From Thermoplasmata archaeon (GTDB lineage Archaea; Thermoplasmatota; Thermoplasmata; Lutacidiplasmatales; UBA184): a stretch of DNA of 43,477 bases. Position numbers and translations under genes: made by a program. Every line of letters starts with the position of its first letter. The stretch's first letter is position 1. Positions 308-15,487 of the stretch are shown piece by piece. The notes beneath the pieces are model-generated. The model searched no databases. It was not told where the DNA came from and saw only the letters and a program-made list of their open reading frames with translations. The stretch lies in contig JAJYEA010000011.1 of NCBI GenBank assembly GCA_021790425.1, positions 1-43,477 on the forward strand. Reading direction: 5' to 3'.

Positions 308-1993
308 ATGACCTACACCGAGGACGTCACCATCCGGGGGAATCTCTACCGCTACGAGGTCGAGGGTTACCGCGACCCCAAGACCCGGAAGGTTCGCCAC
401 CGGCGGAAGTATCTTGGCAGAGTCGAGGTGGCCACCGATGGGAGCAAGCGTCTCGTCCCCAAACGCTCCCGGGATCCCACGGTGGAGGAAATCCTCCCCT
501 TCGGCGACCTTGCGCTCCTCTTCGACACTGCGGAGAAGCTCGACGTGGCCGGAACCATCGATCGGCTTGCCCCCCGCCCCGGGACCACCCCGACGGGGGC
601 GGCGGTCCTCCTCCTCGCCATCAACCACCTCGTGGGCCGGGTGGCCCTGGATGACGTGGCGGAATGGTACGACCAGAGCATGCTTCGTCAATGGATTGGG
701 AAGGATCCGGAGCTCTTCACGGAGGAGCGGCTCTTCTCGGTCCTGGATTCCATCTGCCACCGGGAAGAGCACTGGATGTGGGACAAGAGTTGGTTCATCT
801 CGGACGCCCTCCGCCGGAAGGCGGAGGAACTATGGGGCCCCGAGAGCCGCTACGTCTACTATGACCGGACGCAGATCCTCTACCACGGGGAGCAATGCTA
901 CTACGCCGACTTCTCCTATGCGGCCGGAGAGCCTGAGGAGCGACGGAAGATTGGGATGGGGGTGGTGATCCGTAGGGGAGACGGATTCCCTGTGATGTAT
1001 CGGGTCTATCGGGGAAACCAAGTGGACGTGACCACGGTGGAGGAGGTCAAGGAGCGGCTGAAGGCGGCGGGGCTGGAACGGCTCATCGTGGTGATGGACC
1101 GAGGGATGTCCAGCGGCGAGAACATCGATGAACTGGTGAAAGCCGGCTATGACGTGGTAGTGGGGGTCGCCTCGCGAGAGGAGGTGTTCGGGCAGTTGAT
1201 GAACGAACTGACCGATGACGAGATCGAGCGGGCGGAGAACCGTCTTCGGAGGGGAGATCGCGTGTTCTGCCTGGTCGAGCGTGTTCTTACGGTGAAGGGA
1301 CAACGCAGGAAATACGTGGTTTACCAGGATCCTCGGGTGCGGGGGGAAGAGAAGGCGACCCTTCTCCGGGCGTTGGAGGTATGCGAAGAGAGGTTGCAGG
1401 ACCTCCAACGGGAGATGAAGGAGCCCACCTCGGGAAGGAGCCGTCGCCCGGACTGGTCGGCCCGGGCACAGGAGATCGTGGGGGGCCTGAGGAGGTACCT
1501 GTCCTGGAAGATTGAGGGGGATTGGCTCAACTGGAGCACGAAGGACGAGGCGATCCGGGAAGGGATGTCTCACTTGGCCCGGGGCGTACTGATGAGCACG
1601 TCGGTGGAGATCCCGAAAGAGGAGTTGCTCCGGGCCTATCTGGACAAGGATGAGGTGGAGAAGGTCTGGCGAGTCGGGAAGGGAACGCTGGGGCTGACGG
1701 GGGTAAAACACACGAAGCGGGACCGGGTGGTGTCGTACCTGCTGGTATGCTACGTGGCCTATCTGCTGTGGGTGGCGTTGCGGCGGCGGCTGAGGGAGGC
1801 CCAGGTGAAGCTCAGCCCGGAGAAGGCGATGATGCGGATGCGGCGGATCGAGGTGGTGCGGTTCCAGGTGGGGGGGAAAGAAACCTACGGGATTCCCCGA
1901 CCGGTGTCGCAGGAGGCGAGGATGCACGAGAAGTTCGGGCTGGCCCGTCTCCTCCCCATCCCTCTGACCGGAGGGAGGGCCCCGAGACAATGA
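308..1993 (+). CDS. IS1634-family transposase (DDE)
   Basis: This 561-residue protein cuts and joins the ends of the insertion sequence. The N-terminal part carries the region typical of IS1634 proteins, with KVRHRRKYLGRVE near residue 30. The catalytic acids can be placed by context: Asp186 in YYDRT, Asp264 in VVMDRGM, and Glu449 or Glu451 in YLDKDEVEKVWR, the last in the position of the IS4-superfamily Y-R-E motif. The frame is intact and of full family length, so the element may still be active. The ATG at 308 directly follows a small stem-loop. The stop overlaps the start of the next gene as ATGA, so the two are probably translated together. The call is firm at superfamily level and good at family level. 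Confidence 0.88.
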   Translation: MTYTEDVTIRGNLYRYEVEGYRDPKTRKVRHRRKYLGRVEVATDGSKRLVPKRSRDPTVEEILPFGDLALLFDTAEKLDVAGTIDRLAPRPGTTPTGAAVLLLAINHLVGRVALDDVAEWYDQSMLRQWIGKDPELFTEERLFSVLDSICHREEHWMWDKSWFISDALRRKAEELWGPESRYVYYDRTQILYHGEQCYYADFSYAAGEPEERRKIGMGVVIRRGDGFPVMYRVYRGNQVDVTTVEEVKERLKAAGLERLIVVMDRGMSSGENIDELVKAGYDVVVGVASREEVFGQLMNELTDDEIERAENRLRRGDRVFCLVERVLTVKGQRRKYVVYQDPRVRGEEKATLLRALEVCEERLQDLQREMKEPTSGRSRRPDWSARAQEIVGGLRRYLSWKIEGDWLNWSTKDEAIREGMSHLARGVLMSTSVEIPKEELLRAYLDKDEVEKVWRVGKGTLGLTGVKHTKRDRVVSYLLVCYVAYLLWVALRRRLREAQVKLSPEKAMMRMRRIEVVRFQVGGKETYGIPRPVSQEARMHEKFGLARLLPIPLTGGRAPRQ

Positions 1994-3460: not shown

Positions 3461-5689
3461 CTAGAACGTGTCCCCAAGCGGATCCTTCTCCCCTTCGCCT
3501 AGAATGGGATAGGGTTCAGAGGATGTACCCGACTGGGGACCTTTGAACTGGCCCACGCTCACTTGCCCCTTCATGGGGGGGCGCCTCCCAGTCCTGCGGT
3601 ACACAACGACCGATACGGTGATCCCAGCAGCAACGATGGCCCCCCCGGTGTAGTACCAGTCGCTCCAATTGGTGGTCGAACTCCGGTGGGTAGGTGGCGG
3701 GGTCGTTGAGCTCACTACGTGGATGGTCACCTCATGCGTCCTTAGGTTCCCAATCTGGTTCTGAAGCGATACGTTGACTGTGAAGGTTCCAAGTTGGGTT
3801 GGAGTGCAGGTGAGGGTGGGAGTGTCCTGACTCTGACAGCCAGGCGGAAGATCGAGGTAGCTGTAGGTGAGGGTCTGAGGTTGAGAGACTGGTGCGGCTA
3901 GCTGGACCTGGATGGTCAATGCGGAATTCACACTGGTGTTGCTTGGCGCAATCACGGTGAAGTCAAAGACAACCTGCAGGTCTGAGGTCGCCGTAACGGT
4001 GTTTCCGTCCAAGTCGGTAACGTTCAGTTTGATGGCGTAGCTGCCTGCCTGCGTGGGAAGGCACCCGATGGACGAATTGTCTCGAGAGAGGCATCCTGGG
4101 GGAAGCTCCCCGTAGGAGTACTGGTAGGGGGGGGTTCCCCCCGTTGCATTCGCCGAGAGCATCAACGTTTGTCCGAGGAGCAGTTTTCCAGCGGACAGGT
4201 TGAAGGTCGCACGGAGTCCCGGAAACACCGTGACCGTCGGAGAAGTCGCCACTCCCCACCCATTCAATGAATCGGTAACATTGACGGAAACGTTGAAGCT
4301 GCCGGTAGCCGCGGGTGTGCAGTTCAGCCAGGCGGCGTTGGTGGGAGCGCATCCGGCAGTGGTGCTTGACACCGAGTATCGGTACGTGTAGGGGGCTCTC
4401 CCTCCGGCGACTGTCGTGTTGAAGGTCAGCAACTGATTCGTGTCTACCGAAGTACGGGAAACTTGGAGCGAGGCCTGAATGCTGTAGTGGGCACTGCTGA
4501 AGGTGATGACCCCTACTCCTTGGGCGTCGACGACATACGCAAATCCGTTGTCCGGGTCAAAGACCCCCGAACCGAACGACCCGGAGATGCTGCCTACTAC
4601 CGTGTTGGTAGAATCGTTGATCATGGCCAGACTTCCAGTGCCAAGGCCGTACGCCACGAGCATTGCCCGGTACTGACTAACGTAGGTGAGGCCTGACGGG
4701 TAAGCAAAGGGGACAGTCGCGACGACCTTCGCGCCCGTGATAACGGTGAGGTTTCCCGCGCCACCGCTCATTGAGGCATAGACATCACCATTGAAAGAGT
4801 CGTAGGCTACATACTTTGCAGAGTTGCCCGAGCCGTAGGGAGCCACGCTCACATTTCCGATCAAACGATTCGTGCTCCCGGACAGAACACTCACATTGCT
4901 CCAGCTTCCGTAGCCCCCGTCACCGAAGTATAGGTTCCCTGTTCCGCTATCGTAGGTGATAGGCCCAGGGAAGTTTGCGACGGAGATGTTCCTGATGAAG
5001 GTGTTGGTAGAACCGTCGATCACTTGGACTGAGCTCGCGTTTCCATTTGTCAAGTAGATGTCCCCATTGGAGGTATCGATGGCAAGCCCGCCTTTCCAGC
5101 CGGTGGTGGGAATAGTCTTGGTGATATGGTTGGTAGAGGTGGAAACCACGTAGACATTGCTGTTGTCTGCGGTGTAGATGTCTCCGTTAAGAGGGTCATA
5201 GGCGAGGCATGCGCATTCGGTCACTGCACCCGACACAGTCGCGACCACGGTATTGTTTGCGGTCGAGACGACCAGCATGGACGTTGCGCCTCCGACGTAC
5301 AAGTATCCATTTGCGGAGTCGTAGGCCAGGAACTGACCAGATGCAGTGAGGTTGTACGCCAAGCAGAAGGGAGAGCAGGCAGACGAAAGATCGCGCCCAG
5401 CGGGCTCTGATGCGACCATCGGAGGCACGGAACGAGCTCCGGTACCTATGGGCTCCCCCCAGCGAGGCAACTCATGGCCTCCTCCCAGCAACGCCGGAAC
5501 GCTAGGAAAGAGAAACAACCCTACGACACCAAGAGCTAGCACTACTCCCAGTGCAGTGAACTCGGAAGTGCGCCGACATCGTTCTTGATCCCGAGGATTG
5601 AACTGCCGTGGACTCCCCCTCAACGCTCGCCCGTGGAAACTCTCGTGCATGTGCAGGTCCCACCTGAACACGAGAATGTCCGGATTCAT
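3461..5689 (-). CDS. Membrane-anchored surface protein: beta-propeller plus three Cys-paired Ig-like repeats
   Basis: A 742-residue extracellular protein. A hydrophobic segment near residues 43-68 (ALGVVLALGVVGLFLFP) acts as signal or N-terminal anchor. A YncE/NHL-like seven-bladed propeller follows (blades such as GYLYVGGATSMLVVSTANN and GDIYTADNSNVYVVST). Next come three Ig-like or PKD-like repeats, each with the core PPYxYxY-LPPGC then LxCxPTxxGxF/Y. The C-terminal membrane helix is YYTGGAIVAAGITVSVVVY with a basic stop-transfer. Asn-x-Ser/Thr sites are abundant, as in glycosylated archaeal surface proteins. The same repeat occurs five times in the GH18-like protein at the other end of the window. 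Base composition is lower in GC than in the core genes. Ligand unknown; adhesion or substrate binding is plausible. Confidence 0.7.
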   Translation of the reverse strand: MNPDILVFRWDLHMHESFHGRALRGSPRQFNPRDQERCRRTSEFTALGVVLALGVVGLFLFPSVPALLGGGHELPRWGEPIGTGARSVPPMVASEPAGRDLSSACSPFCLAYNLTASGQFLAYDSANGYLYVGGATSMLVVSTANNTVVATVSGAVTECACLAYDPLNGDIYTADNSNVYVVSTSTNHITKTIPTTGWKGGLAIDTSNGDIYLTNGNASSVQVIDGSTNTFIRNISVANFPGPITYDSGTGNLYFGDGGYGSWSNVSVLSGSTNRLIGNVSVAPYGSGNSAKYVAYDSFNGDVYASMSGGAGNLTVITGAKVVATVPFAYPSGLTYVSQYRAMLVAYGLGTGSLAMINDSTNTVVGSISGSFGSGVFDPDNGFAYVVDAQGVGVITFSSAHYSIQASLQVSRTSVDTNQLLTFNTTVAGGRAPYTYRYSVSSTTAGCAPTNAAWLNCTPAATGSFNVSVNVTDSLNGWGVATSPTVTVFPGLRATFNLSAGKLLLGQTLMLSANATGGTPPYQYSYGELPPGCLSRDNSSIGCLPTQAGSYAIKLNVTDLDGNTVTATSDLQVVFDFTVIAPSNTSVNSALTIQVQLAAPVSQPQTLTYSYLDLPPGCQSQDTPTLTCTPTQLGTFTVNVSLQNQIGNLRTHEVTIHVVSSTTPPPTHRSSTTNWSDWYYTGGAIVAAGITVSVVVYRRTGRRPPMKGQVSVGQFKGPQSGTSSEPYPILGEGEKDPLGDTF

Positions 5690-6854: not shown

Positions 6855-8843
6855 TCACAGGTACTGAATGCGAGTGACAGTACAGGCGACCGCAAACGTA
6901 GAGCTGTTACCGTTTGCCGTTACTTGCACAGTCACATTCGTACCTGCCTTGCAACGCAAGAGAGCACGTGAAAACACCTGTGCATTGGACGTGGCATTTG
7001 CGGCCACCCCCTTAGAGCCTCCAGCCGAATCGGTGTAACTTGCGTCGTAGCTGATGGTCCCACTCGCGTAGGCGTACGGGCATATTTCTACCTCGATAGC
7101 GAGAAATTCATCATTCGCACTAACCGTATATATGGTAATGGGGGAAGGATCTGTGGCATTCAGATTGACTCTATCATCAACACCTACAATGATCGGTAGT
7201 CTGGTTTGACCCGAGAAGTTGGTGACGAGGGCAAAGTCTGGGATTCCACTCGTCGGCAGGCTCTTTGAAACCCAGAGTGGTACGGTTGGCGGTTGCCTGC
7301 TCACTCCCGAAGTCACGAGGTCAAGATTGCCGATGGTAATTGCAGGAAAGAAGACTGGCGTTGGACCACCAGTCTGGCCCTTGTTGTAGCTAAACCATGC
7401 TAATGTTGGGTTGGTGTAATTGCTGCTTTCCCAAAGCAGATTCACGATGTGCACTGCTACTGCGCTGTCATTCGCAACGTCAATGAGCGAGAGAGGTGCA
7501 GTGCCACCCGTGGGCCCGTTGGCGAAATGGTGCCAATAAAGAATAGTGAGACCATAGCCTTGATGGCTGATCAGGGGTGTGTTCGTTGAGGTGTAGCTGG
7601 TGTTAAGATGGTCAATGCTCAGGTGCTCAGCTGATGTTACAATGAGATTCTCAAATCCATCTATGTGAAGCCACATTGCGTGCATCTCCGCAGCATTCCC
7701 GATCTGGTCCCACTGCAAACCTACCGACCCAGTTGCTAAATTCCCGCCTATCCACATGCTACCAATGTTATAGAACGCATTGTCGAGCCATATTCCAGAG
7801 CCGTTAGGTGCATAGATTGCAATACCATCGACAAAACCCTTGATGTACTGGCTGTTTGCAGCACTTGAATTGGTCTTGATGGCGAAGTCCGTCCCGCTGT
7901 AGTTGATGTACACGCCGGCCGTATTGCCGGTTACCGCATTCGTATTCTGATTGGTAAGCACTCCGACCAGGCGTATTCCGCCGTATGCAGGAAGGTAGAT
8001 TGGCGAGGATGTGTTGAACAAGTTCCCTTTTCCAATAAGGTGAATCTCCTGGGCACCGCTATCGATAGCCTCTTGAATGCCACAAGTCGAAGTACCTGGC
8101 GTGTCTGGTCCAAAATCTGCACCATCGTTCATCAAGGCGGTCGCTGGGGTCGTGCTCTGCCCTATAGCCGAGACAGTAGCAGTGGGTCTCCCAGAAAGCT
8201 GTGTCCACGGGATCCGAAATGAAATCGCGATAGTCACCGTTACAAACGAGGTGCTGGCTGTTACGGTTCGTGTAGGGCTCACCGTAGCGCCGCCTGGGTT
8301 GATTTGATACTGGTAGCTCCCCCACGCGGTTACGTTTGTTGGGGCGGTAGGATAGCCAGAGATACCCGTCTGCCCACTTCCCCAAGACGAGAAAGTGGCG
8401 GATTGGTCCGCTCCAAGGAAGAGTACCAATTCCCCATCTATGCTTACCGAACTGTTGCCACTCTCAAGGGTACCAGAGCCATCAGTCGAACTGGAATTGT
8501 CCGGGCTGCCATCGTTCAAGACTTCAATTGCAACGATCTCGATGGGGGACGTGGACGACGAAGGGGTAACGGTTACGGTGAACGAGGACGAGGCAGAAAC
8601 CGGCGACATGCGCCGGAAAACCCAAAGCCACACTGAGCCTAGAGATCCCGATCTGAGAAGTTTCCATCCTCCACTCTGGGAGTCGGCAACTGTTGGATTC
8701 GATAGCGACGATCCGTACATCGCGACCTGCATGTACATGGCCGCTCCTTGAAGGACGGTCTGGGCGGGGGTAGTTAGACTGGTGGCTCCACTGCTTGATG
8801 CAGCCCCAGATATCGTTCCGACACTGGGAGGTATGTTCGCCAT
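6855..8843 (-). CDS. Tail-spike-like protein with beta-helix domain
   Basis: This 662-residue protein has no signal peptide or membrane helix. Residues 1-100 resemble domains common in phage structural proteins (Gly/Ser/Thr-rich strands, SQSGGWKLLRSGSLGSVWLW, then WVFRRMSPVSASSSFTVTV). From about residue 235, CGIQEAIDSGAQEIHLIGKG and IYLPAYGGIRLVG begin a pectate-lyase-3-like right-handed beta-helix that runs through many short strands to about residue 530. A small C-terminal beta domain ends in VTRIQYL, as receptor-binding or tail-fibre proteins often do. The start was chosen at ATG 8843 because a TATA box (8863-8872, - strand) lies 26 bases upstream; a TTG at 8864 would fall inside that box. 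No other virus genes are next to it. It is either a proviral remnant or a domesticated fibre; a cytoplasmic or non-classically exported role is possible. Confidence 0.5.
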   Translation of the reverse strand: MANIPPSVGTISGAASSSGATSLTTPAQTVLQGAAMYMQVAMYGSSLSNPTVADSQSGGWKLLRSGSLGSVWLWVFRRMSPVSASSSFTVTVTPSSSTSPIEIVAIEVLNDGSPDNSSSTDGSGTLESGNSSVSIDGELVLFLGADQSATFSSWGSGQTGISGYPTAPTNVTAWGSYQYQINPGGATVSPTRTVTASTSFVTVTIAISFRIPWTQLSGRPTATVSAIGQSTTPATALMNDGADFGPDTPGTSTCGIQEAIDSGAQEIHLIGKGNLFNTSSPIYLPAYGGIRLVGVLTNQNTNAVTGNTAGVYINYSGTDFAIKTNSSAANSQYIKGFVDGIAIYAPNGSGIWLDNAFYNIGSMWIGGNLATGSVGLQWDQIGNAAEMHAMWLHIDGFENLIVTSAEHLSIDHLNTSYTSTNTPLISHQGYGLTILYWHHFANGPTGGTAPLSLIDVANDSAVAVHIVNLLWESSNYTNPTLAWFSYNKGQTGGPTPVFFPAITIGNLDLVTSGVSRQPPTVPLWVSKSLPTSGIPDFALVTNFSGQTRLPIIVGVDDRVNLNATDPSPITIYTVSANDEFLAIEVEICPYAYASGTISYDASYTDSAGGSKGVAANATSNAQVFSRALLRCKAGTNVTVQVTANGNSSTFAVACTVTRIQYL

Positions 8844-8862
8844 GGCCTGTAGGAGGCTCGTC

Positions 8863-8872
8863 AATATTTATT
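8863..8872 (-). promoter_or_regulatory. TATA box of the tail-spike-like gene
   Basis: AATAAATATT on the - strand is centred about 25 bases before ATG 8843, giving a leaderless start. It sits exactly where the orphan membrane-protein tail on the + strand begins, so the promoter marks a recombination junction. Confidence 0.55.
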
Positions 8873-10848: not shown

Positions 10849-11637
10849 CTAAGCCAAGAGCAAGGTGATCGCCCGGTCCAGACCGGCGACGGCGGGATAC
10901 TGGGCCCGCTGCAGAGGATCGACCCAGGCGAGCTCGGAGTATCCCTTCGCGGCACGCAGGTCGCCACGGCTCGTACGGAACAGGTAGGCGTGAATGACGA
11001 ATCCTTGCCCGCCCTCCCGTGCGTATGCGACGGCCCCCTTCCCGACCGGGGACAAGTCCTCCCGTCGGAGTCCCAAGGCCGCCTCCACCACCTCGTACGC
11101 CTGAGCGACCGGATCCCGGTCCTCGAGGAGGCCGCTGATCCCGCCCCACTTCCCTTGGTACGTTCGAACCGTGCCGGGCTGCTTGAGCAGAAGCACCTGC
11201 CCTTTCTCGTTCTGCAGGAGGGAGGTGACCACGCGATTCTCCTCGACGTGAGGGATCTCGATGGAACCCTCCGCGCCATTGACGATGACCTCCTCTCCAT
11301 CGTGGAGCATCGCCACATCCACTCCGGAGACGCAAGGCAGGTTGGCGAGCACGGCGGCGCTTGCGACGATCGCATCCGCCGTTCCCACGACCATCGCGAG
11401 GGGGGCAGTCCCCCGCTTCGCGGCCCCGTACAGAACGTAGGGGCCGACCGTGCTCCCCCTGGCCTCGGGGAACACGAGAACCGTGCCCGTCACGCTCCGC
11501 CCGTTAAGCTCGCTCTGGGGATTCTCGACCTTGCCCGTGTTCGCATCCAATTCCCCCAGGAAGGAGAGCGGCGCGGTACTCTTCGCGACCTTTCCTCGAA
11601 CGATCCCATCCGAGACACGACGAGCGTGGATTCGCAC
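10849..11637 (-). CDS. Phosphomevalonate dehydratase small subunit fused to a degenerate Nudix domain
   Basis: Residues 8-128 are the swivel subunit of aconitase X (DUF126): TAPLSFLGELDANTGKVENP, LNGRSVTGTVLVFPEARGS and the GPYVLYGAAKRGTAPLAMVV segment. In archaea this subunit completes mevalonate-5-phosphate dehydratase, which makes trans-anhydromevalonate 5-phosphate. Residues 131-262 form a Nudix-type fold: VVTSLLQNEKGQVLLLKQPG, KWGGISGLLED, then AYEVVEAALGL. The Nudix box is spoiled, with Glu-Val in place of Arg-Glu and Ala-Ala in place of the two metal-binding glutamates. Family small subunits are normally about 130 residues, so the second half is an addition. GTG 11637 was chosen because TATA (11658-11664) lies 24 bases upstream. 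It lies 100 bases downstream of the large-subunit gene but has its own promoter. Confidence 0.85.
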   Translation of the reverse strand: MRIHARRVSDGIVRGKVAKSTAPLSFLGELDANTGKVENPQSELNGRSVTGTVLVFPEARGSTVGPYVLYGAAKRGTAPLAMVVGTADAIVASAAVLANLPCVSGVDVAMLHDGEEVIVNGAEGSIEIPHVEENRVVTSLLQNEKGQVLLLKQPGTVRTYQGKWGGISGLLEDRDPVAQAYEVVEAALGLRREDLSPVGKGAVAYAREGGQGFVIHAYLFRTSRGDLRAAKGYSELAWVDPLQRAQYPAVAGLDRAITLLLA

Positions 11638-11737: not shown

Positions 11738-12922
11738 TCACACGTACTTGCGGATGAGCTCCTCGGTGGTGCCGAAGACGACCCGCTGGCCGCTGAAGGA
11801 CTTCTTGGACGCGTAAAAGGCTGCTTTCGCCGAGTTGACGGCGATCACCGGGTACTCGGCTCCGAGGGGGGCCACCACCATGCAGGTGTCCTGCACGATC
11901 TTGATGCCCGCCTTCCTCAGGTAGCTCACGACATCCGGATTCGCCGCGATGACGCCGCGGCTGGTGAAGGCCCAGACCTCCGTCTTCGGCTTCGCGTTCT
12001 CCCCTCTCTTCCGAAGCACCTCCGCGAGGGTGTTCAACTCGCTCGCGGTACAGTGGGGGCATCCGATGGCCACTAGGTTGGGGGACTCGTCACCGCCCAG
12101 CGAATGCTCGAACTCGGCCAGCTCTCGAGCGTCCACGCTCAGGTGTTCCAACCTGCGCACATCCTGCCGCGACGCCTCGTGGGTGACCCCCTCGACGTGG
12201 AACATGGGGACCGAACCCCACGCGCTCATCGCGGCCCCCATCTCCTTCAGGGAATCGATGTTGGGGGCCACCCCTCGGACGTACGGGATACGGCTGCCCA
12301 GCTTCTTCCCGAGATAGGCACCGAGGACGGTGTAGCGGATCGGGTCCGGGGAGGGGCCCACGTCCACGACCAGGTCCGGGTGACGGCCCTCCGGTCGGTG
12401 AAGACCGTGGTCGGGGGTCTTCCCGAGGACGGCACTGGCTAGGGCGGTCGGTGCGCCTTCCCGGTTCGAGAAGGCACCCACCACGCTGTTGACATAGATG
12501 ACCGCCGAGCTCTCCGCCCAGGCCAGGTGGACTCCCGCAGGGGGGTCCCGTTCGATGGCGTAGGGGATGCAACTGAAGGAGGGCTCGGCGCCCATGGCGA
12601 GGAGGGAGCGCACGAGCCGCTCCTGCTTCCACCGGAAGTCGTCGTCGGCCCGGATGAGCCCCGGGCCCCCGACATCGTAACCGGCGGGGTTGACGGTGGT
12701 CGGCACGGAGAATCGCACCTCCTTGGCCGCGTCCTCCAGGAATTCGGTCCCGGGAAGGCCCATGGTCTTGAAGGAGACACCGGAAAGATGGGCGGACCAG
12801 ATGGGGATCAGCCGGCTCGCGTCGTTGAGCTCGCCGACGGTGACGAGGATCCGCATGAGCTCCCCGAGCCGGGGACCCTTCTCCCCCCGGAGGATGGACT
12901 CCTCTTCCTTCGTGAGCTGCAC
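11738..12922 (-). CDS. Phosphomevalonate dehydratase large subunit (aconitase X type)
   Basis: The 394-residue protein matches the aconitase X catalytic subunit (DUF521). Together with the swivel subunit it removes water from mevalonate 5-phosphate in the archaeal mevalonate route. Three cysteine sites suited to an iron-sulfur cluster are visible: Cys118 in PSFSCIPYAIERDP, Cys288/Cys291 in AIGCPHCTASEL, and Cys347 in IVQDTCMVVAPL. The N-terminus VQLTKEEESILRGEKGP is that of the family, so the GTG at 12922 is the best start; TATA (12948-12955) lies 29 bases upstream. A GTG at 12934 is less likely because it is too close to the box. The gene follows the decarboxylase gene on the same strand after 38 bases. 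Confidence 0.9.
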   Translation of the reverse strand: MQLTKEEESILRGEKGPRLGELMRILVTVGELNDASRLIPIWSAHLSGVSFKTMGLPGTEFLEDAAKEVRFSVPTTVNPAGYDVGGPGLIRADDDFRWKQERLVRSLLAMGAEPSFSCIPYAIERDPPAGVHLAWAESSAVIYVNSVVGAFSNREGAPTALASAVLGKTPDHGLHRPEGRHPDLVVDVGPSPDPIRYTVLGAYLGKKLGSRIPYVRGVAPNIDSLKEMGAAMSAWGSVPMFHVEGVTHEASRQDVRRLEHLSVDARELAEFEHSLGGDESPNLVAIGCPHCTASELNTLAEVLRKRGENAKPKTEVWAFTSRGVIAANPDVVSYLRKAGIKIVQDTCMVVAPLGAEYPVIAVNSAKAAFYASKKSFSGQRVVFGTTEELIRKYV

Positions 12923-12960: not shown

Positions 12961-14260
12961 CTACGCGGAGGGCTTCCCCTCGGGGAAGCGCTCCCGGACG
13001 AACGGCTCCCGAGGAGCCTCGATCGGGAGGGTGGCATCGATCCCCCACTTGGTGGTGACCCCGTCCTTCGTGGCGCTCGGGTCGAGGCTCGAGCCGGTCG
13101 CCCCCGGGACCACGACCAGGCCCTTGTCGGCCTGGAACCGGGTGGCCACCGCCCACTCCACCTCCCGGTCATTGAAGATGTCGACATCCGCGTCCACCAC
13201 GGTGACGTGCTTCATGGAGCCATGGCCCGCGAAGGCGGCCATGATGGCATTCTTCCCGTCCCCATTGCGTCGCTTCTGGATGGAGACGACGCCGTTCAGC
13301 CAACCGCACCCCCCTTCCGTCAACCGGACGGCCCGGACCCCGGGCACCACGGAGCGCACGGCCCGCAGGATGAAGGGCTCCCTCGGGAGCCCCATCAGGA
13401 GCACGGTGCTCCTCGGACCCGGGCAGGATTGTGTGGAGCACCGGCTGCTCCACGGAGTGGATCCGGTCCACGCGGATCACCGGTTCGGTACGCACCGGGT
13501 CGTAGATGCCGAGGATGTCGAGGAACGGCCCTTCCTGGTCATCCTCCAGGGTGATGGCCCCTTCCATCACGATCTCGGCCTCGGCGGGAACACGGATGCC
13601 GCCCTCCACCTCGGCCACCGGCAAGGGTTGCCCGGTGACCCGCTGGCGGAGCGCGGAGGCCACCTCCATCTCATCGACGGCGTAGTCGGTCGAGCATGCC
13701 GCGGCCAGGAGCACCTCCGGCGGTGCCCCCACGATGATCGCTACGGGCAGCTCGTTCCCCTCCTTCCGTGCCTCGCGATACATGCGGTCGATATGCCGGG
13801 GGACGATCCGGGCCGGTCCCCCTCGGGGTCCCTTGACCCAGAGCCGGTGGTAGGAGAGGTTTCTCTTCCCCTTCCACGTGGCGGAGAAGATCGAGGAGGT
13901 CAGGTATTTTCCCGCGTCCTTGGGATAGCACTGGGGCACGGGCCACCGGGAGAGGTCGGGCTCGTGCACCTGGGCGCGCCATACGACCCCCTCCGTGACC
14001 AGCTTCGGGGCGAGCGGATGCTCCAAGGCGTGGAGCAGGAGGTCGGGCAGCTCTTCGATCTTGACCCTGAAGTACGCGGCCATCGTGGCCCGGTCGGGCC
14101 ACAGGTTGCCGACCGCCGTGGGTCCAGGGCGTCCCTGGAACCAGAGCGTGTGGGAAGGGTCCGAGACCAGCGCCCTCGTGAACCCCAGCTTGGGGTCGAC
14201 AGGGTCCTTCACGATCTTGACCCGGGGAAGGCTCGCCAGGTAGTCTCGCAGGGGGAACAT
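12961..14260 (-). pseudogene. UbiD-family decarboxylase (anhydromevalonate phosphate decarboxylase type), split by a frameshift
   Basis: UbiD enzymes use prenylated FMN; the archaeal mevalonate branch uses one to turn anhydromevalonate phosphate into isopentenyl phosphate. The N-terminal part runs from MFPLRDYLASLPRVKIVKD (ATG 14260; GTG 14290 possible) to [10 protein letters not shown]. The C-terminal part begins [17 protein letters not shown] in another frame and ends at TAG 12961. The family sequence runs straight across this point (LPG[13 protein letters not shown]). One extra base at 13405 (or 13406) explains the shift, and it is the centre of GAGCAC-G-GTGCTC. The catalytic region (EIVMEGAITLEDDQEGPF) and the [20 protein letters not shown] segment are intact. 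In a gene needed for isoprenoids, a sequence error is as likely as true loss. Its neighbours are mevalonate kinase upstream and the dehydratase downstream. Confidence 0.82.
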
Positions 14261-14331
14261 GGTACGGTCTGCAGTTACCCGCAGGGTCACTTAGCCGTTG
14301 CCGTCCGAGGGGGACGGGCCATCGACCGGTC

Positions 14332-15276
14332 TTACGGAAGCAAGCGGGTTCCCTGGGGCGAGCTTCCCACCACGAAGGGTATCCCCCCGGCGTCCGAGAA
14401 GAGCCGAGCCACCCGCTCCTCGTCTCCCCCCTGCGTCAGGGCCAGCAGGGAGCCGCCAAATCCGGCACCGGTGATCTTGACCCCGAGCACAGAACCGCGG
14501 ACGGCCGCGACCATCCTGTCCAGCGAGGGGTGACCGATCCCGAGTTCTACGAGGAGCTCGTGGTTGAGGTTCATCAAGCGTCCGACCTCCGCCCGGTCGG
14601 CCCGCTCCAGCGCACGGATCCCGTCCTCCGCGACGGCGGTGATCCGGTCCAGGAGGTGGGAGGTGTCGTCGCGCAGGCGAACGCCCACCTCATGCACGCG
14701 CGGTCCCGTGGACTTGGGGACCCCGCTGAAGGCCACGATCCACGTCCAGCCGGGGTCCCTCAGACGGTCGACCCTCCAAGGGCCCCGACCATGCATCGCG
14801 GGGACCTGCCACAATTCCGTCCCGTATCCCCTCCCTCCGATGGAGATCAGTCCGCCCGCGGTCACCGTGCTGGTGTCCGCCGGGCTCCCGGTGCGCTGCG
14901 CCTGATACTCGCACACGAAGCTGTTGCGGGCCAGCGCGGGGGCATCCTTGGGCTCCGCCGAGAGCGTGGTCAGGAAGGCGCTGATGAGGGCGGCAGAGGA
15001 TCCCATGCCAGAGCCCATGGGGACGGAGGAGCGCACCGTGATGTCGAGGCCGCGCAACCCCTCCATCCTCGCGGCTTCCTTGAGATAGGGATTGCGGTCG
15101 TAGGCATCCGGCGACCCGCCGAGCGTCATATCCTCCCGGGAGTAGGCGGTGGTCTCCACGGTGGTGAGAAGGTCGATCGCCAGCGCGACGGCCGGGCGCC
15201 CGTAGACGACCGAGTGCTCACCGAACAGGATGACCTTCCCGGGGGAGGTCGCCGATCGCTTCCAGAGCGGACCCAT
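14332..15276 (-). CDS. mvk: Mevalonate kinase
   Basis: A GHMP-family kinase that phosphorylates mevalonate on its 5-hydroxyl group. The 314-residue protein has all three motifs in order: SPGKVILFGEHSVVYGRPAV near the N-terminus, the ATP loop PMGSGMGSSAALISAF around residues 92-107, and KITGAGFGGSLLAL near the C-terminus. The length suits archaeal and bacterial type mevalonate kinases. ATG 15276 puts motif 1 eleven residues in. Upstream in-frame codons have no family sequence. It is the first gene of a - strand series with the decarboxylase and the two dehydratase subunits, which is strong support for the route through mevalonate 5-phosphate. I saw no clear TATA box. Confidence 0.93.
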   Translation of the reverse strand: MGPLWKRSATSPGKVILFGEHSVVYGRPAVALAIDLLTTVETTAYSREDMTLGGSPDAYDRNPYLKEAARMEGLRGLDITVRSSVPMGSGMGSSAALISAFLTTLSAEPKDAPALARNSFVCEYQAQRTGSPADTSTVTAGGLISIGGRGYGTELWQVPAMHGRGPWRVDRLRDPGWTWIVAFSGVPKSTGPRVHEVGVRLRDDTSHLLDRITAVAEDGIRALERADRAEVGRLMNLNHELLVELGIGHPSLDRMVAAVRGSVLGVKITGAGFGGSLLALTQGGDEERVARLFSDAGGIPFVVGSSPQGTRLLP

Positions 15277-15487
15277 GCTTGCGGCTTCGGTGAAGGGGAC
15301 GGTCGCCTTAGCTTTGTGGGGAGCCCGAGCGATCCACCAGGCCGTTGATTTCGGGATTCTAAGACAGGTTCCGCGGGCGCGTCCCCGTTGCCGACAAGAG
15401 GGTATCTTCGCCGCTCGGGTCACGAGGCGAGGTCACGGACTTCCGGCTGAGCAAACTACATCACGGTCCCGGGGTACTCCGCGGAAC
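15277..15487. other. Divergent intergenic region, mevalonate kinase and thiolase
   Basis: These 211 bases separate two genes that point away from each other, so at least two promoters should lie here. I could not pick a TATA box with the usual spacing for either start, and saw no repeat or RNA gene. Confidence 0.5.

Follow-up and report, generated by a model that had tools for sequence, protein, structure and literature searches.

Duplication and complementary decay of a conserved swivel-Nudix fusion gene as the likely origin of a putatively dead Nudix domain on a predicted phosphomevalonate dehydratase subunit in a Thermoplasmata archaeon

Main finding

Based on the comparisons reported here, we consider it likely that duplication of a conserved fusion gene, followed by complementary decay of its two copies, explains both a fused gene in the analysed stretch of DNA (the window; 43,477 nucleotides of a Thermoplasmata archaeon) and its paralogue on contig C21 of the same genome. 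We propose that an ancestor in this class possessed a swivel domain fused to an active MutT/NudI-like Nudix hydrolase, that is, a two-function gene, and that a later duplication of this gene took place in the window genome's lineage. On C21, at the original position, the Nudix active site would have been retained and the swivel motifs lost. In the copy beside the large subunit gene of phosphomevalonate dehydratase (PMDh) the swivel would have survived, whereas the Nudix half would have lost its catalytic Arg and four Glu, leaving the C-terminal half folded but catalytically dead. Between them, the copies would restore the ancestral pair of functions through duplication, degeneration and complementation.

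Results

A predicted PMDh small subunit in a mevalonate gene cluster

The fused gene and its parts are as follows.

10849..11637, (-) strand: fused gene, AcnX swivel (predicted PMDh small subunit) plus putative Nudix pseudoenzyme; 262 aa, GTG start
11251..11637, (-) strand: swivel half, residues 1-129, with the GSTVGPY motif (Pfam, 7cnr fold, conserved positions)
10852..11247, (-) strand: Nudix half, residues 131-262, fold retained, catalytic residues gone (Pfam, AlphaFold2, conserved positions)

The preliminary description had read 10849-11637 as a swivel followed by a Nudix domain and had assigned it to the archaeal mevalonate pathway, and both readings are borne out. In Pfam, residues 24-103 match AcnX_swivel_put (E 1.4e-27, 95.8 bits, gathering score 27) and residues 135-244 match NUDIX slightly below its gathering score (E 5.7e-4). 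The AlphaFold2 model, built from a 37-sequence alignment, is confident in both halves (mean pLDDT 95.5, pTM 0.88), and Foldseek places the N-terminal half on the small subunit of TkPMDh (7cnr; TM 0.94 by target) and matches the C-terminal half to MutT-like Nudix proteins. Both halves lie in one frame and show a coding-like bias, with third-position G+C of 0.79 and 0.82.

The swivel is 43-44% identical to TK1248 of Thermococcus kodakarensis (7cnr/7cns), and shares with the type IIb AcnX small subunits of PMDh (TK1248; Ape_2089 of Aeropyrum pernix) the fold, the GSTVG motif and an adjacent large-subunit gene. PMDh has been described as a two-subunit enzyme (PMC10040528), and its known small subunits are proteins of about 130 aa without a Nudix domain (the 7cnr chains have 128-134 residues), whereas the window protein carries one. 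Since the window protein is a divergent member, reaching 131 bits against the cut-off of 163 in the NCBIfam equivalog PRK03955, which is a naming threshold only, it was filed as a PMDh small subunit by domain, motif, fold and context. On these grounds it is predicted to be the small (swivel) subunit of PMDh in the archaeal-type mevalonate pathway, and its swivel half would pair functionally with the large subunit encoded next to it.

The cluster reads mevalonate kinase, UbiD-type decarboxylase, PMDh large subunit and fused small subunit; its other members are the following.

11738..12922, (-) strand: PMDh large subunit (AcnX catalytic), probable GTG start at 12922
12961..14290, (-) strand: UbiD-type decarboxylase, candidate anhydromevalonate phosphate decarboxylase, frame broken
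14332..15423, (-) strand: mevalonate kinase (TIGR00549, 164 bits against a cut-off of 163; the model aligns from residue 60, start uncertain)

The large-subunit gene occurs as a single copy in the window genome. The decarboxylase is split near 13400 over two frames (ORFs 13169-14290 and 12961-13404) by either an assembly indel or a real frameshift, so the ORF caller overextends the large subunit upstream to 13156, into the decarboxylase gene, and misassembly or decay may have affected the cluster. In the stretches examined from ten other genomes of the same family (f1), the large-subunit gene stands without the kinase, the decarboxylase or the fused gene nearby.

Elsewhere in the window, an intact ORF of 561 aa at 308-1993 (+) resembles, by eye, an IS4/IS1634-type transposase, and two large Ser/Thr-rich ORFs encode putative secreted or surface proteins, one at 6855-8864 (-; 669 aa) and one at 3461-5689 (-; 742 aa) with apparent beta-propeller repeats. 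The first 8 kb of the window differ from the rest in tetranucleotide make-up.

Loss of the Nudix active site in the window copy

11065..11133, (-) strand: ruined Nudix box GLLEDRDPVAQAYEVVEAALGLR; family relatives read like GYLE..xPxEQAxREIxEETGL

The ruin of the box, already noted in the preliminary description, is confirmed by alignment with 36 relatives and extends beyond the box itself. The Nudix half has lost its catalytic-type residues through R153Q, E183V, E186A, E187A and E232G; at positions 183, 186 and 187 the relatives have E (35) or D (1), E (36) and E (36), where the window copy has V/A/A, and R153 and E232, present in 36 of 36 relatives, are Q and G. The consensus GX5EX7REUXEEXGU is missed with E at the Arg position and V/A/A at the Glu positions. 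W231, H233 and P217 are likewise altered, while core residues L149, L151, W164, S168, G169, P176, W238 and V250 are still in place, as are E172 and R207. All losses are in-frame substitutions without a frameshift. Retention of the core together with loss of the catalytic positions is the pattern expected of a folded, catalytically dead domain, which the window Nudix half most likely is.

The box is intact in all 36 aligned relatives, leaving the window copy as the only ruined one among this set, which was gathered with the window protein itself; the statement rests on these relatives because a scan by Nudix motif would miss box-dead copies. The nearest relatives are about 50% identical to the window protein, a distance at which saturation of synonymous sites is expected. 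Its Nudix half has the longest end branch of the Nudix tree (1.74), against 0.33 for its swivel half, which changes at a normal rate. Compared with MutT/NudI-like hydrolases (3grn, 3n77, 6dt3), fold and overall sequence are shared and the box is intact in the relatives and the C21 paralogue, whereas in the window copy the REUXEE residues and the out-of-box Glu are gone and the domain is joined to a dehydratase subunit.

Dead Nudix domains act as sensors in some functional proteins, and there are Nudix-fold regulators that bind ligands without cleaving them. The dead half might accordingly serve as a regulatory sensor that binds an isoprenoid diphosphate or a nucleotide and tunes PMDh, as room for sensing is left by the fold kept in frame with its core residues, the gene adjoins the PMDh large subunit and mevalonate kinase cluster, and the Nudix half stays attached to the PMDh subunit throughout the class. 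However, the substrate-side residues R153, W231, E232 and H233 have been lost alongside the catalytic positions, and the half evolves far faster than that of any relative. We regard a sensor as improbable, and the lineages described below, wherein the Nudix half outlives the swivel, weigh further against it.

The swivel-Nudix fusion is ordinary for the class

Following the suggestion to look for the same architecture in other Thermoplasmatota, we searched 390 genomes of the phylum, and many families belonging to the same class gave full-length matches. Those extracted were swivel-Nudix fusions, amounting to dozens of full-length homologues from independent assemblies, and a Nudix-motif scan found fusions in Methanomassiliicoccales, other Thermoplasmata and Euryarchaeota bins. 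A single-sequence scan of the wider genome contigs gave no matches, but the scan with a Nudix alignment did. Other classes of the phylum had swivel-only matches among the matches listed, and stand-alone swivels also occur within the class, in family f5. The fusion is therefore ordinary for the class (Thermoplasmata, Methanomassiliicoccales). In the open-licence literature searched we found no prior report of a fusion of PMDh or aconitase X with Nudix, and could not find a description of this class-wide two-enzyme fusion in a core archaeal lipid pathway.

One same-genus draft, G391, seemed to have three matches, but the fused gene on its contig C277 (L075/L095) is near-identical to that of the g6 genome G377 and probably foreign to the bin. 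The fused gene proper to this draft runs off the end of contig C108 (L096).

The breadth of the fusion bears on whether it could be a gene-calling, frameshift or assembly artefact, or a decaying pseudogene, as the frameshifted decarboxylase next door and the draft state of the genome (153 contigs) could suggest. The same fusion in dozens of independent assemblies, an open frame with coding third-position G+C bias in both halves, and a swivel without a single lost conserved position render this highly improbable. An artefact limited to the window genome had been named as what would overturn the fusion, and it is contradicted by the class-wide occurrence and by losses that are all in frame.

The paralogue on contig C21 shows the reverse pattern of loss

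The window genome contains exactly two homologues, the window gene and the following.

Contig C21, ORF 1330-2070 of L002: paralogue (L002/L051), 246 aa

Its Nudix box, GFLEASSPLEQALIEIGEETSL, has all three Glu. Its swivel half has no Pfam detection and no GSTVG motif, and is still modelled as roughly swivel-folded. In a leave-one-out count of the positions conserved in at least 90% of the fused proteins, the window copy keeps 21/21 swivel and 10/15 Nudix positions and the C21 paralogue 5/21 and 15/15, and ten other f1 fused proteins keep from 20/23 to 21/21 in the swivel and 15/15 in the Nudix half. Two copies with complementary losses thus occur in one genome, as expected of a subfunctionalised pair. 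The C21 paralogue would be an active hydrolase, most likely of a nucleotide-type diphosphate.

The gene order on C21 (zinc-ribbon protein / X / lipoate-ligase-like / cl6 / HPS) equals that around the fused gene in the same-genus genome G040, and G288 has the same order plus two inserted genes, which places the C21 copy at the original locus and makes the window copy the relocated one. In the Nudix-region tree the C21 copy falls within the genus clade (support 99/80; repeat trees 99/94 and 99/97), and in the swivel tree the window copy groups with the genus (98/93) on an ordinary branch. Contamination was considered for the C21 paralogue and is not supported: its neighbour genes are single-copy in the window genome, the gene at the contig end continues on contig C5 at 100% identity, and the tetranucleotide profile matches most of the window. 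C21 very probably belongs to the window genome.

Both copies fall with the genus in the domain trees, but the AU test (p 0.17) neither establishes nor rules out that they are sisters, since the window copy, with its long Nudix branch, cannot be placed securely. The window copy may have been acquired from a relative and decayed afterwards.

Independent decay of the swivel in other lineages

The swivel half has decayed independently about three more times, with the Nudix half intact each time; two of these decays occurred without a PMDh large subunit and one with a stand-alone swivel. In the f1 genera g2, g3 and g156 the large subunit is absent, and the homologue, where present, keeps its Nudix box, has a decayed swivel and adjoins the luciferase-like monooxygenase gene that also flanks the fused gene in g4, g5 and g6. 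These three genera mostly carry a TIGR01240-family decarboxylase, which g1, g4, g5 and g6 lack. The same damaged form is found in five Sysuiplasma-like genomes, none of which encodes a PMDh large subunit, against large subunits in 7/7 comparison genomes. In family f2 of the same order (L047/L048, L221/L222), a stand-alone swivel accompanies a separate Nudix protein whose own swivel has decayed, which looks like replacement by a second swivel.

By parsimony, four changes are needed on the Nudix tree. A single origin of swivel decay within f1 is rejected at AU p 0.048, a borderline value, and gene order supports two decay events within the family. Replacement of one mevalonate-pathway type by another in Thermoplasmata is known in outline (PMC11052028; PMC10040528); its trace in the fused gene is new here.

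Since the Nudix half persists without a working swivel, its activity appears separable from the dehydratase, which argues against a role in tuning it. In four lineages the half survives without a working swivel on its chain, two of them without a PMDh large subunit, and this counts against the sensor discussed above as well. The earlier suggestion that the extra half binds an isoprenoid or a nucleotide and tunes the dehydratase is thus not supported: the relatives have an intact box, the half and its box survive where the large subunit is missing (g2, g3, g156 and the Sysuiplasma-like genomes), and the window genome itself has an intact box on a separate, swivel-decayed paralogue. The dead window half could conceivably retain a leftover ligand-binding role. 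A broader proposal seems to us quite improbable: that throughout the class the PMDh-Nudix fusion links isoprenoid production to a signal, either a nucleotide or a prenyl diphosphate, and that in the window lineage the pair divided into the C21 hydrolase and a PMDh subunit whose dead Nudix half senses this very ligand allosterically.

Probable function of the ancestral Nudix domain

By sequence and profile, the ancestral Nudix half is matched best by nucleotide pyrophosphohydrolases of the MutT, NudI and CTP pyrophosphohydrolase types. The same subfamily (WAGVSGYxE ... DWEHTE ... TVPGL) is fused to CinA-C in Dehalococcoidia (L189, L197, L200, L211), and in Thaumarchaeota and Ca. Hecatella (L199, L207) it is fused N-terminally to IF-2B-like proteins, with another enzyme as the partner in each case; the partner domains differ from the swivel, and the box is intact there. 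These matches and partners favour a nucleotide-type substrate, as far as sequence relationships can indicate.

A variant of the preferred explanation, differing in substrate, holds that the intact Nudix halves hydrolyse a pathway metabolite class-wide (e.g., IPP to IP) and so balance the pathway, an activity lost by the window copy and performed by the paralogue. Plant Nudix enzymes acting on prenyl diphosphates are known (PMC7194074), geranyl-diphosphate phosphohydrolase 6ypb and type-1 IDI are among the weak sequence matches, IPK is present in nearly all genomes of the family, and many g2 and g3 genomes carry the Nudix gene and IPK-IDI2 on one contig, 10-18 kb apart. However, the best profile matches point to the MutT/NudI/CTP pyrophosphohydrolase types, the CinA-C and IF-2B-like partners are tied to nucleotide metabolism, and many g2 genomes keep IPK without the Nudix gene. 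Moreover, Nudix and IPK are separated in g2 by what seem, judged by eye, to be unrelated housekeeping genes (SAM synthetase, Elp3-like, MiaB-like and others), so the proximity in g2 and g3 was not accepted as a functional operon and is a weak hint only. We assign IPP hydrolysis a small probability.

The type-1 IPP isomerase has the Nudix fold in common with the window domain and weak sequence similarity to it. The window domain is not a displaced isomerase because a genuine type-1 enzyme is encoded elsewhere in the window genome (G000:C64:4253-4726); this gene is the sole own-genome match of TIGR02150, which the window protein does not match. Dedicated isomerases across the f1 genera rule this reading out: true type-1 IDI occurs in 4/5 g1 genomes, the window genome included, and in 2/3 g5 genomes, and g2, g3, g4, g6 and g156 mostly have type-2 IDI adjoining IPK.

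Discussion

For annotation, copies with a degenerate swivel in Thermoplasmatota should not be taken for PMDh subunits, nor can an active Nudix domain be assumed wherever the fused gene is found. The fusion has come undone repeatedly, providing natural experiments among which the window genome captures complementary decay after duplication. They allow a direct test of the assumption that fused domains are functionally coupled, and the comparative evidence presented here indicates that they mostly are not.
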